A stretch of DNA of 64,000 nt, taken from an uncultured Alphaproteobacteria bacterium. GTDB taxonomy: Bacteria > Pseudomonadota > Alphaproteobacteria > Rhizobiales > Aestuariivirgaceae. Below, piece by piece: positions 738 through 16,525 of this stretch. The notes beneath the pieces are model-generated. The model was not told the DNA's origin, searched no databases, and saw only the letters and a list, made by a program, of their open reading frames with translations. Numbering within the stretch: the first letter of the stretch is position 1; each line of letters starts with the position of its first letter. The DNA lies in contig CALMWF010000046.1 of the NCBI GenBank assembly GCA_937873445.1, positions 62,001-126,000 on the forward strand, read 5' to 3'. The position numbers were made by a program, and so were the translations under genes.

Positions 738-2816
738 ATGCCCAAGATCAAGATCGACGGAACGGAAATCGAAGTCGAGAACGGCACGACGCTGCTCCAG
801 GCCTGCGAGCAGGCGGGGGCCGAGGTGCCGCGCTTCTGTTATCATGAGCGCCTGTCGGTGGCGGGCAACTGCCGCATGTGTCTGGTGGAAGTGAAGGGCG
901 GTCCGCCCAAGCCCCAGGCCTCCTGCGCCATGTCGGTGAATGACCTGCGCCCCGGCCCCAATGGCGAACCGCCGGAGGTGTTCACCAACACCCCCATGGT
1001 GAAGAAGGCGCGCGAGGGTGTGCTGGAATTCCTGCTCATCAACCACCCGCTGGACTGCCCCATCTGCGATCAGGGCGGCGAGTGCGACCTGCAGGATCAG
1101 GCCGTGGCCTATGGCGTCTCCGGCAGCCGCTTCAAGGAAAACAAGCGCGCGGTGGAAGACAAGTATTTCGGCCCGCTGGTCAAGGGTGAGATGACCCGCT
1201 GCATCCTGTGCAGCCGCTGCGTGCGCTTCACCACAGAAGTGGCGGGCATTCAGCAGATGGGCATCACCGGGCGCGGCGAAGACGCCGAGGTCACCACCTA
1301 TATGAACGCCATCATCGGCTCGGAATTGCAGGGCAATGTCATTGACCTGTGCCCGGTGGGGGCGCTCACCAGCCTGCCGTATGAATTCAAGGCCCGCCCC
1401 TGGGAACTGCGCAAGACCGAAACCATCGATGTCATGGACGCGGTAGGCTCTAACATCCGGGTTGATGCCCGCGGCCGCGAGGTCATGCGCATTCTGCCGC
1501 GCACCCATGAGCTGGTGAACGAGGAATGGATTTCCGACAAGACCCGCTTCGTCTGGGACGGGTTGAAGGCCCAGCGTCTGGACCAGCCCTATATCCGCGA
1601 ATTCGGCAAGCTCCGCCCCGCCAGCTGGACCGAGGCGCTGGACCGTGTGGCCCAGAAGGCCAAGACCACCGCCCCCGCCCGGATGGGCTTCATTCTCGGC
1701 GATCTCGTCTCCGCCGAGGAGGCCTTCTCGCTCAAGACCCTGGCCGACCAGCTGGGCACCGCCAACATTGACTGCCGTCAGGATGGCGCCGTGCTGGGTG
1801 AGCGTGGCGGCCGTGCGGCCTATCTGTTCAATTCCACCATTGCCGGGATTGAGGACGCCGACCTGATCATTCTCGTCGGCACCAATCCGCGCCTTGAGGC
1901 GCCGGTGCTGAATGCCCGCATCCGCAAGCGCTACAACCGCGGCGGCCTTGCCGTGGCCGTGGTCGGTGAACAGGCCGACCTCACCTACAAATATGACTAT
2001 CTGGGCACCGGGCCGGAAACCCTCGCCAAGCTTGATCCCGCCCGCTTCGCCAAGGCGCAGAAGCCCATGGTGATCGTCGGGCAGGGGGCGCTGGCCCGGC
2101 CCGATGGCCGCGCCGTTCTGGCGCTTGCCGCCAGGTTTGCCGCCGCCATTGGCGTGGTGCGCGGCGACTGGAACGGCTTCAACATTCTCCACACTGCGGC
2201 AGGCCGCGTTGGCGCGCTGGACGTGGGTGCGCTGCCAGGCAAGGGCGGCATGGATGTGGCCGGCATGGTGAAGGCAGCAGGCGAAGGCGCGCTTGATCTT
2301 CTGTTCCTTGCCGGGGCCGATGAAATTGACATGCAGGCCCTGGGCACTGCCTTTGTGGTCTATATGGGAAGCCATGGCGATGCCGGTGCCCACCGCGCCG
2401 ATGTCATTCTGCCGGGCGCTGCCTATACCGAAAAGTCGGCCACCTATGTGAACACCGAAGGCCGGCCCCAGCTTGCCCTCTCCGCCGCCTTCCCGCCGGG
2501 CGAGGCGCGCGAGGACTGGGCCATTCTGCGCGCCCTGTCGGCCGAACTGGGCGCCACCCTGCCGTGGAACAGCCTCGCCGAACTGCGCAGCGACATGTAT
2601 GCCAAAGCGCCGTGGCTGGCCGCCCTCGATCAGGTGATGCCGGCCGATCCGGCGCGGCTTGCCGAACTGGGCAAGGGCGAAGGCCGCACCACGGTCAATC
2701 CCTTCCATTCGCCCGTGCGCGACTTCTACCTCACCAACCCCATTGCCCGGGCCAGCCGCATCATGGCCCAGTGTTCCGAACTCAAGACCGGCGGCAGCAG
2801 GGAGGCGGCGGAATAG
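738..2816 (+). CDS. nuoG: NADH-quinone oxidoreductase subunit G
   Basis: This 692-residue subunit carries several iron-sulfur clusters in the peripheral arm of complex I. Ligands are visible in order: a 2Fe-2S ferredoxin domain (C34, C45, C48, C63), the His-ligated N5 cluster (H103, C107, C110, C116), and an N4 cluster (C155, C158, C161, C205). A molybdopterin-oxidoreductase-like domain fills the rest. I see no extra N7 cluster motif after C205, as usual for alphaproteobacterial and mitochondrial forms. ATG 738 was chosen over upstream in-frame codons because it follows the nuoF stop directly and begins MPKIKIDG. Confidence 0.97.
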
Positions 2817-2817
2817 C

Positions 2818-3534
2818 ATGAAGCGCCTCGGCATCATCGGCGGCATCAGCGCGGCATCCACTGCCCACTACTATGCCCTCATCAATGAGGGGGTGCAGGC
2901 GCGGCTGGGCGGTCTGGCGCAGGCCGAACTGCTGATCTGGTCGGTGAACTTCGCCGATGTGGCGGCCCTTCAGGAAAAGGGCGACTGGCAGACGCTGGGC
3001 GTCATGTTCGCCGACATTGCCCGCCGTCTGGAGGGGGCAGGGGCCGAAGCCATCATCATCGCCGCCAACACCATGCACAAGGTGGCCGATGAGGTGACGG
3101 CGGCGGTGACCATTCCGCTCTTGCACATCGCTGACATCACGGCGGCCGCCATCCGCCGCACCGGGCTGAAGCGCCCCGGCCTCATGGCCACCGCCTACAC
3201 CATGGAGCAGGATTTCTATGTCGGCCGCTTCCGCGACCGCCACGGCCTGTCGCTGCTGATCCCCGGCGAGGCCGACCGCCGCGACACCCACCGCATCATC
3301 TATGACGAATTGTGCCGCGGCGTGACCACCGATGTCTCACGCGCCCGCTATGAGGACATTGCCCGCGCCCTGGTGACGCAGGGCGCCGACTGCCTCATTC
3401 TCGGCTGCACCGAAGTCGGCATGCTGCTTAACCAGGGCAATGTGCCGGTGCCGGTTTTCGACACCACCCAGTTACACACCAAGGCCGCAGTGGACTTTGC
3501 CACAGGCCACAGCCTGCAACAGGCGGCGGAGTAG
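2818..3534 (+). CDS. Asp/Glu racemase-family protein with altered active site, inside the nuo operon
   Basis: A 238-residue protein aligning end to end with E. coli YgeA-type amino-acid racemases: GGISAAST near the N-terminus, NTMHKVADE at 84-92 and ILGCTE around C197. The family normally uses two catalytic residues, Cys/Cys, or Thr83/Cys197 in the E. coli enzyme as I recall it. Here C197 is kept but positions 82-83 are Ala-Ala, so the first acid/base is missing. The ATG is one base after the nuoG stop and the TAG is four bases before nuoH, so the gene is cotranscribed with complex I. A conventional racemase is doubtful; a one-sided isomerase, a binding protein or another amino-acid activity is possible. 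Confidence 0.85.
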
Positions 3535-3538
3535 AGAG

Positions 3539-4558
3539 ATGAGCGTCTGGTTTGAAACCTATCCCTGGCTGTTCCGCACCTTCGTCATCGCGGGCGTTCT
3601 GGTGGGCGTGCTGCTTTCCACCGCCGTGCTGATTTACGGCGAGCGCAAGATCTGGGCGGCGGTTCACATGCGCCGCGGCCCCAATGTGGTGGGCCCCTGG
3701 GGCGTGCTGCAGCCCATTGCCGACTTCCTGAAATTCATCCTCAAGGAAAGCATGGTGCCGGACGGCGCCAACAAGGGCGTGTTCATCATCGCGCCGCTGC
3801 TGTCGGTCATTCTCGCCATTTCCGCCTGGGCGGTCATTCCCGTCAGCAAGGGCTGGGTGGTGGCCGATATCAATGTCGGCATCCTCTACATCTTCGCCGT
3901 GTCGTCGCTGGGCGTCTATGGCATCATCATGGCCGGCTGGGCCTCCAACTCGAAATATCCCTTTCTGTCGGCGCTGCGCGCCGCCGCCCAGATGGTGTCC
4001 TATGAAGTCTCCATCGGCTTCGTCATCGTCACCGTTCTGTTGTGCGCGGGCTCACTGAACCTCAGCCAGATCGTCGAGGCGCAGAACAGCAAATGGGGCA
4101 TGTTCGGCTGGTACTGGTTGCCGCTGTTGCCCATGTTCGTCATCTTCTTCATTTCCGCCCTGGCCGAAACCAACCGCCCGCCCTTTGACCTTGCCGAAGC
4201 GGAGTCGGAACTGGTGGCGGGCTACATGGTGGAATATTCATCCTCGCTGTTCCTGCTCCAGTTCCTCACCGAGCTGGTGGCCATTCTCGGCATGTCGTCG
4301 CTGGCGGCGGTCCTGTTCCTCGGCGGCTGGCTGCCGCCCTTCAACGTTGCCCCCTTCACCTGGGTGCCGGGTCTGGTCTGGTTCCTCATCAAGGCCTGGG
4401 CCGTGGTGCTGATGTTCTCCATCGCCAAGGTCATCGTGCCGCGCTACCGCTATGACCAGCTGATGCGCCTGGGCTGGAAGGTGTTTCTGCCGATATCGAT
4501 CTTCTATGTCGTGCTGGTGGCGGGTGTTCTGGTCACCATGGGATGGCTGCCGAAATGA
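3539..4558 (+). CDS. nuoH: NADH-quinone oxidoreductase subunit H
   Basis: A 339-residue integral membrane subunit that forms part of the quinone chamber where the peripheral arm meets the membrane arm. The sequence has about eight hydrophobic helices and the conserved cytoplasmic loop motif [20 protein letters not shown], which lines the quinone tunnel. The N-terminal [16 protein letters not shown] segment is also typical. ATG 3539 was preferred to in-frame codons upstream because those lie within the preceding racemase-like gene. The stop overlaps the start of the next small gene (ATGA). Confidence 0.97.
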
Positions 4559-6226: not shown

Positions 6227-8284
6227 ATGTATCAGGCCATTGTCTTTCTGCCGCTGCTGGGCGCCCTCATCGCCGGACTGGGGGGCACCAGGATCTTCTC
6301 CATGCTGGGCAAGGACGCCGACGTCTATGGCGACCACGCGGCCCACGGCCATGACCCCCATGACAGCCATGACGCGGCGGCCCACGGCCATGATGACCAT
6401 GGCCACCACGGCCACTATGACGGGCCCAACTGGCCCATGTATCTCACCACCGGCCTGCTGCTCGTATCAGCGCTGCTGTCATGGATTGTCTTCCTGGGCT
6501 TCCTGCACGAAGGCCATGACAGCCGCATGGAAATTGCCCGCTGGGTTACCTCCGGCGCGCTCACCACCAGCTGGGGCATCCGCATGGACACCCTCACCGC
6601 CGTCATGCTGGTGGTGGTCACCACGGTGTCGGCGCTGGTCCATGTCTATTCCCTCGGCTATATGAGCCACGACGAACACCAGCCGCGCTTCTTTGCCTAT
6701 CTCTCCTTCTTCACCTTCGCCATGCTCATGCTGGTGACGGCCGACAATCTCCTTCAGATGTTCTTCGGCTGGGAGGGTGTGGGCCTCGCCTCCTATTTGC
6801 TCATCGGCTTCTGGTATCAGCGGCCCTCGGCCAATGCCGCCGCCATCAAGGCCTTTGTGGTGAACCGGGTGGGTGACTTCGGCTTCATCCTCGGCATCGC
6901 CGCCTGCTACAAGATCTTCGGCACCATCGAGTTTGAGCCGCTGTTTGCCGCGGCCTCCGGCGCGGCAGGCAAGACCATTCATTTCCTCAGCTGGGATTTT
7001 GACGCGCTCACCACCATTTGCCTGCTGCTGTTCATGGGCGCCATGGGCAAGTCGGCCCAGTTCCTGCTTCACACCTGGCTGCCGGACGCCATGGAAGGCC
7101 CCACCCCCGTGTCGGCCCTCATCCACGCCGCCACCATGGTTACGGCGGGTGTATTCCTGGTGGCGCGCATGTCGCCGCTCTATGAGCTTGCCCCCGTGGC
7201 GCGCGAGGTGGTGGTCATCATCGGCGCGGTCACGGCCTTCTTCGCCGCCACCGTCGGCCTGGTACAGAACGACATCAAGCGCGTCATCGCCTATTCCACC
7301 TGTTCGCAGCTTGGCTACATGTTCGTGGCGCTCGGTGTGGGCGCCTATGGCGTCGCCATTTTCCACCTCTTCACCCACGCCTTCTTCAAGGCGCTGCTGT
7401 TTTTGGGCTCCGGCTCGGTCATTCATGCCATGTCGGGCGAGCAGGACATGCGCAAGATGGGCGGTCTCGCCCCCCACATCCGCATCACCTGGGCGCTGAT
7501 GATCATCGGCAACCTGGCGCTGACCGGCTTCCCCTTCACGGCGGGCTATTTCTCCAAGGACGCCATCATCGAAAGCGCCTTTGCCGCCCACAGCGGTGTC
7601 GGCACCATGGCCTTCTGGCTTCTGGTGGTGTCGGCGCTGTTCACCTCCTTCTATTCCTGGCGTCTTGCCTTCCTCACCTTCCATGGCAAGCCGCGGGCCT
7701 CGGGCGAGGTCATGGCCCACGTCCACGAAAGCCCCAATGTCATGCTGGTGCCGCTCTATGTACTGGCGGCGGGCGCGCTTCTGGCGGGCCTGGTCTTCCA
7801 GAACTATTTCATCGGCCACGAGGAGGCGACCTTCTGGGGCAAGGCCATCACCCGCCTGGCCGATAATGAAATCATCCACCACATGCACAGCGTGCCGGGC
7901 TGGGTGAAGCTTGCCCCCATGGTTGCCATGGTGCTGGGCTTCCTCACGGCGCTGTTGTTCTACATCATCAACACGGCGCTGCCGAAATACTTCGCCGAGG
8001 GGCTGGAGCCGCTTTACCGCTTCCTGCTCAACAAGTGGTATTTCGACGAGCTTTACGACTTCCTGTTCGTCGAACCGGCGAAGCGCCTGGGCCGCTTCCT
8101 GTGGAAGAAGGGCGACGGCGCGGTCATTGACGGCTTCGGCCCGGACGGTGTGTCGGCCCGCGTGCTGGACGTGGCGCGCGGCGCCGTCAGGCTGCAGAGC
8201 GGGTATGTCTATCATTATGCCTTTGCCATGCTGCTGGGGGTTGCCGCCCTCATCACCTGGTTCAGCTTTGCGGGAGCGCACTGA
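6227..8284 (+). CDS. nuoL: NADH-quinone oxidoreductase subunit L with His-rich loop
   Basis: A 685-residue antiporter-like subunit (ND5 homologue) at the distal end of the membrane arm. Family signatures include [49 protein letters not shown] and [16 protein letters not shown]. The C-terminus has the extra helix region that runs along the arm. It is somewhat longer than many NuoL proteins because of a His/Asp-rich insertion at residues 37-63 (11 histidines) between the first two hydrophobic segments. The stop overlaps nuoM (ATG at 8284). Confidence 0.97.
6335..6415 (+). other. Histidine-rich coding insertion in nuoL
   Basis: These bases encode NuoL residues 37-63, which contain 11 His and many Asp, Ala and Gly in an HGHD-like pattern. 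The loop lies between the first and second hydrophobic segments. Such stretches often bind Zn, Cu or Ni in other proteins; a metal role here is inference. Confidence 0.85.
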
Positions 8285-15965: not shown

Positions 15966-15998
15966 GACGGAAATGCTGGTTTCCAGCCGTCTTGTTTT
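15966..15998 (+). terminator. Possible weak terminator after parC
   Basis: An imperfect hairpin pairs GACGG with CCGTC and CTGG with CCAG, with an asymmetric bulge of five bases, followed by TTGTTTT. It lies 15 bases after the parC stop and before the EF-hand gene. Confidence 0.35.
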
Positions 15999-16045
15999 CA
16001 GAACGGCTTGAGCAGTCAGCCGCTCCCCACAACAAGGAGACCATC

Positions 16046-16525
16046 ATGCTCAGGAAACTGGCAGTAACCACGCTTGCGCTTGCGACCCTCTCCGGCCTCG
16101 CCTTCGCCCAGGGTATGGGTGGTGGCATGGGTGGCGGCATGGGTGGCGGCATGGGTGGCGGCATGGGCAATCCCAACGCCCCCTTCATGCAGCGCTTCAA
16201 GGCTGTTGACGAAAACGGCGACGGCTTCGTCTCCCAGGCGGAAATGACGACCAACGCCGAGAATGTCTTTCTCGCCATGGACGCCGATGGTTCCGGCGAA
16301 ATCACCATGGAAGAATACATGACGGTGCGCATGAACCCCGATGGTGGCAAAAACCCTGCCATGCAGCAGCGCAAGGCCGACCGCTTTCCCGCCATGGACA
16401 CCGACAGCAACGGTCAGGTCAGCAAGGCTGAATTTGTGAACCGCGCCGCCGCCGGCTTCGCCGCCGCCGATGTCAGCGGTGACGGCAGGCTCGATCCCAT
16501 GGAATTCCGCGGTCACGCCGAATAG
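16046..16525 (+). CDS. Secreted EF-hand protein with Gly/Met repeat
   Basis: A 159-residue protein with a cleavable signal peptide (MLRKLAVTT...LAFAQ, cut near residue 21). A GMGG repeat occupies residues 23-41, and four EF-hand-like loops follow: DENGDGFVSQAE, DADGSGEITMEE, DTDSNGQVSKAE and DVSGDGRLDPME. The first, second and fourth have the spacing of calcium-binding loops, so Ca2+ binding in the periplasm is likely. ATG 16046 follows AAGGAGA; the longer frame from 15992 would bury the signal peptide. The gene appears monocistronic, with a terminator after it. Confidence 0.85.
   Translation: MLRKLAVTTLALATLSGLAFAQGMGGGMGGGMGGGMGGGMGNPNAPFMQRFKAVDENGDGFVSQAEMTTNAENVFLAMDADGSGEITMEEYMTVRMNPDGGKNPAMQQRKADRFPAMDTDSNGQVSKAEFVNRAAAGFAAADVSGDGRLDPMEFRGHAE
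16112..16168 (+). repeat. 12-bp tandem repeat encoding GMGG
   Basis: About four and a half copies of a 12-base unit (ggtggcggcatg, slightly varied in the first copy) encode the Gly/Met stretch after the signal peptide of the EF-hand protein. Repeats of this kind can change copy number by slippage. Confidence 0.85.

Follow-up and report, generated by a model that had tools for sequence, protein, structure and literature searches.

The closest described system is the PLP-independent racemase YgeA/EcL-DER of E. coli (structures 5ell, 5elm, 5hqt and 5hra), in which Thr83 and Cys197 are reported to form a pair whose imbalance favours the L substrate (excerpts of PMC12661438 and PMC8142540). Ala at the position of Thr83 is found in RacX of Halocola ammonii, a bacterium of another phylum, which keeps the second Cys according to the alignment in PMC12838360. 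The excerpted text of that paper describes activity on 15 of 17 L-amino acids and a C193S variant that keeps about a quarter of kcat/Km (40.9 against 151.2); its assignment of the catalytic residues is not clean, its excerpts do not settle the mechanism, and they mention no nuo operon. PH1733 of Pyrococcus horikoshii (PDB 2zsk) likewise has Ala at this position, and is cited in the same excerpts as inactive on Asp and Glu. The open-access literature that we searched held no report of a racemase in the nuo operon or between nuoG and nuoH, and no racemase is mentioned in the excerpts of a paper on accessory reading frames in the operon (PMC4859585).

The window, a stretch of 64,000 nucleotides from an uncultured alphaproteobacterium, carries a racemase-like gene of 238 codons plus stop inside the operon for respiratory complex I (Table 1). 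One base separates it from the nuoG stop and four bases from the nuoH start, as the sequence-only reading had described. A consensus scan of positions 2500-3800, which is weak evidence, revealed no promoter of its own for the racemase. A sequencing or assembly error is ruled out: the genomes G014 and G009 share the arrangement, and G014 (contig CALMUW010000013), an independent assembly, has in the same operon place a racemase with 84% amino acid identity and Ala83. Elsewhere in the window, NuoL (6227-8284) has a His/Asp-rich insert close to its N-terminus, and a small secreted-looking protein (15992-16525) has GGGM repeats followed by EF-hand-like DxDxSG stretches.

Table 1. Features of the racemase locus in the window.
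Feature	Position	Strand	Basis or remark
YgeA/EcL-DER-type Asp/Glu racemase family gene, between nuoG and nuoH	2818..3534	+	Open reading frame, profiles, AlphaFold2 model
nuoG, upstream neighbour	738..2816	+	Start inferred (ATG of MPKIKIDG); longest open reading frame 699-2816
nuoH, downstream neighbour	3539..4558	+	Open reading frame list
Ala82-Ala83 codons (gcc gcc)	3061..3066	+	E. coli YgeA has Thr at position 83
Cys197 codon (tgc), retained catalytic cysteine	3406..3408	+	Cys in all 140 homologues with 45% identity or more
Ile10 codon (atc)	2845..2847	+	Met in 131 and Leu in 7 of 138 other homologues
Asn44 codon (aac)	2947..2949	+	Asp in 131 and Asn in 4 of 138 other homologues
nuoG 3' end (Ala-Ala-Glu-stop), first copy of the repeat AGGCGGCGGARTAG	2803..2816	+	Probable ribosome-binding stretch for the racemase (inferred)
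Racemase 3' end (Ala-Ala-Glu-stop), second copy of AGGCGGCGGARTAG	3521..3534	+	Probable ribosome-binding stretch for nuoH (inferred)

The encoded protein belongs to the Asp/Glu racemase superfamily over its whole length. It scores 141.7 bits against PF01177 (cutoff 31) and 203.3 bits against the amino acid racemase profile TIGR00035 (cutoff 93.1), and it has the catalytic Cys197 expected in the second half of the protein. It falls below the cutoff of the equivalog NF007569 (YgeA/EcL-DER; 252 bits against 417) and has Ala83 where that assignment expects Thr83 opposite Cys197. The alignment of residues 1-228 with E. coli YgeA (5ell/5hqt) and with 3ojc is free of gaps. The AlphaFold2 model, built from a 34-row alignment, has a mean pLDDT of 92.3, with values below 50 only in the last five residues. 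It superimposes on the D-Asp-bound structure 5hra (TM 0.94, rmsd 1.1 Å, 45% identity over the full length), and its six top PDB matches are all Asp/Glu racemases (TM 0.90-0.94 by query length). Cys197, Asn84, Thr85, His87, Thr125, Thr128 and Glu199 are invariant in the 34-row alignment, window included. The earlier assignment to full-length YgeA-type Asp/Glu racemases with Cys197 kept is therefore borne out by alignment, profiles and structure match. The protein shares the fold, Cys197 and the NTMHK motif with E. coli YgeA/EcL-DER, and differs from it in having Ala for Thr83, Ile for Met10 and Asn for Asp44, and in being encoded in the nuo operon. PH1733 has Ala-Ala-Asn-Thr in the same place, a Cys in GCTE and a similar structure (TM 0.85), and is 33% identical to the window protein.

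The sequence-only reading drew attention to the Ala-Ala pair at positions 82-83, in place of the CT of E. coli YgeA. We compared 140 distinct homologues with 45% identity or more (window included), drawn from 162 fetched loci. The two positions read CT in 77, AT in 52, CS in three, AA in two, TA in two and GT, GS and ST in one each, the last row being a fragment without these positions; AA occurs in the window and G014 only. The residues are as stated, but the pair as a novelty had to be dropped, since Ala82 is common among the homologues; in this alignment Ala82 is ordinary, and the single residue Ala83 is the rare one. We searched the order (397 genomes) for a coding pattern of three residues whose second codon base is T, any residue, then Ala-Asn-Thr-Met-His. 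This search, which may miss Ala83 proteins with other residues ahead of position 82, gave four matches: the window, G014, and two congeneric species with Cys82-Ala83 (G354:C20 and G378:C133). Two further relatives, L031 and L056, have Thr82-Ala83. None of these four other Ala83 racemases has nuoG or nuoH in the flanking stretches examined.

Compared with the other 138 homologues, the Ala83 pair (window and G014) has in common four departures at columns that are at least 90% conserved: M10I, S35Q, D44N and T83A. The median homologue has one such departure. Because 11 of the 138 depart at four or more conserved columns, the number of co-changes in the Ala83 pair is not remarkable by itself. Separately, the racemase of G326 (L107) has Gln164 where every other row with a letter there, in the 138-row set, has Glu.

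The order nuoG-racemase-nuoH recurs beyond this strain, as a search of other genomes, proposed with the first reading, established. We found embedded racemases, that is, genes lying between nuoG and nuoH, in eight genomes from five families of one order (the window genome, G014, G009, G326, G165, G310, G337 and G075), all with intact frames. Within the genus, 3 of 37 genomes have a racemase (E ≤ 1e-40), namely the window genome, G014 and G009, each time between nuoG and nuoH; a relative is present in 8 of the 69 genomes of the family. A nuoH match occurs in 34 of the 37 genus genomes, and in 27 of the 30 nuoH loci fetched from them nuoG is followed by nuoH with no racemase in between. For 26 of the 27 the estimated gap is 0-7 bases; the gap of about 150-200 bases at L190 probably reflects a longer NuoH N-terminus. 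The G009 copy (contig JAAURV010000016, L027) occupies the same place as the window gene, is 65% identical to it and has the same Ala-Ala-Glu end, but keeps Thr83, Met10 and Asp44.

Across the order, a racemase match (E ≤ 1e-40) was present in 134 of 397 genomes. We examined 119 of these, 39 by flanking sequence and 80 by racemase against nuoH coordinates (with a nuoH match in 76 of the 80), and found seven embedded copies, which are those listed above except G009, a genome from outside the order sample; the other 15 genomes, mostly weaker matches, and some second matches lie outside this count. Class-wide sampling of 385 genomes gave 25 with a match (E ≤ 1e-60), and only the window locus among the 25 was embedded. 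A contig scan of the best 80 of 582 relatives gave two embedded copies, on the contigs of G014 and G009; at L094, also among these 80, nuoG lies several kilobases off. Matches occur in 1 of 18 genomes of the G326 family (E ≤ 1e-60) and, at E ≤ 1e-65, in 7 of 10 of the G165 family and 9 of 15 of the G310 family; apart from G326, G165, G310 and G337, the best matches in these families lie outside the nuoG-nuoH gap when judged in the same way. Relatives in Rhodovulum, Rhizobium and other organisms have no nuoG or nuoH within 6 kb on each side, or less at contig ends. The nuoG-nuoH gap is permissive, because two genomes of family f18 (G192 and G238) hold unrelated small open reading frames there. 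These two frames (L218 and L219) have a common C-terminal GPCxSGW stretch, and the start of L219 resembles a signal peptide.

The end of the racemase gene resembles that of its upstream neighbour. The direct repeat AGGCGGCGGARTAG closes both nuoG and the racemase in the window, and nuoG ends in Ala-Ala-Glu-stop in all 50 loci compared; the nuoG of G075 has Ala-Ala-Gln. Six of the eight embedded racemases end in Ala-Ala-Glu-stop, those of G165 and G075 being the two without. In the row comparison this end is found in six of seven embedded rows against 0 of 151 others, with a Fisher p of 3.6e-10 that overstates the contrast, the rows being related and some of the 151 distant or fragments. The nuoG-racemase spacing in the eight loci ranges from a 4-base overlap to 34 bases. 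The Ala-Ala-Glu-stop stretch probably encodes the ribosome site of the following gene, and we infer that the racemase adopted the nuoG-style end by duplication or selection. The ending may be an insertion scar, but selection for a ribosome site accounts for it at least as well, and nuoF likewise ends in Ala-Ala-Glu. Among the 53 genes that were called in the window, a set without the racemase, only nuoF and nuoG end in this way.

Position in the operon and loss of Thr83 are separate events. Ala83 is present in two of the eight embedded copies (window and G014) and Thr83 in the other six (G009, G326, G165, G310, G337 and G075), so that the move into the operon came without concurrent loss of the residue; the link that the earlier reading drew between the lost residue and respiration is not supported by these six. 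In the racemase tree the window, G014 and G009 group together (99/92), and the simplest reading is that Thr83 was lost from a gene already placed in the operon. Between the window and G014, dN/dS is 0.157 for the racemase (at dS 0.59), against 0.132 for nuoG and 0.109 for nuoH. Both carry Ala83, so the constraint acted on the Ala83 form, which is under purifying selection and not decaying; a pseudogene is ruled out by this ratio and the intact frames. With six of 12 outgroups, relative-rate counts make the window lineage faster than G009 (p < 0.05); the remaining six show no such difference. A faster rate is compatible with a change of role no less than with a change of substrate.

The embedded racemases all fall inside one 28-row subfamily (100/100) of a tree of 46 hand-chosen rows (45 of 158 plus G075), together with free-standing genes of Rhodovulum, Rhizobium, Castellaniella and others; they form one clade in 0% of 200 bootstrap trees. 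Either an old insertion followed by many losses or repeated entry of related racemases fits this pattern, and a single insertion is not proven. In quick trees of nuoG and nuoH (40 rows), the genes of the embedded f27 and f18 genomes place with their own families, which disfavours a joint move of the whole nuo segment with the racemase; f34 and f39 have no further member in these trees. The embedded label changes six times in each nuo tree, against twice in the racemase tree. At least five and three of these changes in the nuo trees are forced by well-supported branches, and 41 and 40 of 500 shuffles were as low. As a further observation, the nuoH genes of the window, G014 and G019 (loci L174, L175) form a long-branched group within the genus, with 81% identity to the window in G019 against 65-70% in the other fetched genus loci except G014. 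By nuoG, G019 is placed elsewhere, which suggests exchange or a rate shift within the operon.

We favour, with a probability of about 0.57, a PLP-independent enzyme of the YgeA/EcL-DER kind, a racemase or isomerase of amino acids that is carried by the operon and would work through Cys197 in a modified active site; its activity is extrapolated from the sequence. The racemase would be read from the nuo transcript, with the 3' end of nuoG supplying its ribosome site and its own Ala-Ala-Glu-stop end supplying that of nuoH. Adapted to the operon in this way, the gene would be expressed steadily and would need no part in complex I. In the window-G014 lineage the protein would have acquired its four shared changes and then been kept. 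Cys197 may still shift the C-alpha proton on one face, with solvent or a neighbouring residue acting on the other, and such one-face chemistry would bias the direction or alter the substrate without abolishing catalysis. The first reading had named homologues with the Ala pair that racemise Asp or Glu normally as evidence against a new function. RacX answers this in part, being active over a broad range, with Asp/Glu activity not reported in the excerpts of PMC12838360, and PH1733 is cited there as inactive on Asp/Glu. The neighbours of free-standing relatives (19 proteins at seven loci, assigned by Pfam) are varied and indicate no pathway: they include an aldo/keto reductase, a short-chain dehydrogenase, LysR, AraC, DapB, a histidine phosphatase, an MFS protein and others, with three of the 19 without a family.

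The main rival is a catalytically dead binding or sensor protein, whose fold would bind an amino acid or dicarboxylate and not isomerise it, as is reported of PH1733 with Asp and Glu. The alteration of Thr83, Met10 and Asp44 together in the Ala83 lineage, the PH1733 precedent (excerpts of PMC12838360) and the faster evolution with half of the outgroups are all in line with such a protein. However, Cys197 and the other invariant residues are retained, RacX is reported active with Ala, and the inactivity of PH1733 is cited in those excerpts for Asp and Glu only, so that we regard a dead protein as unlikely.

More doubtful is the idea that the Ala83 pair was remodelled for a respiration-tied reaction or ligand, for example as a one-base isomerase or dicarboxylate sensor, its co-translation with NuoG and NuoH setting complex I output. 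If this were true, the recurrent placement in five families would have been selected for that coupling. A still less probable reading makes the protein a complex I accessory on which assembly, stability or activity depends. Use of the same gap in all eight genomes and the operon-style end common to most embedded copies agree with it, but an accessory should accompany the nuo operon across the lineage, and the genus nuoH loci mostly lack the gene, which is present at all in few genus genomes, is embedded in only 7 of the 119 examined order genomes with a racemase, stands apart from nuoG and nuoH in Rhodovulum, Rhizobium and other relatives within the flanks searched, and shares its gap with unrelated frames in f18. 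A role in complex I is thus unlikely. As for the earlier suggestion of a new function tied to respiration, none of the results connects the protein with complex I activity, and 27 of 30 genus loci do without the gene. The operon might also have trapped a neutral passenger or a gene in decay, to which the sparse, patchy presence and the change at a usually conserved residue might point; this is very improbable and already disfavoured by the dN/dS of the window and G014 and the intact frames of the window and the seven other embedded copies.

The locus offers a natural series for an open question in cofactor-independent racemases, the role of the second acid/base: same-locus orthologues that are 65% identical, with Thr83 in G009 and Ala83 in the window and G014, can be compared side by side. 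It also presents the operon of a core respiratory enzyme in which a metabolic gene is present in certain species but missing from others; the end of the embedded gene equals that of its upstream neighbour in six of eight cases.
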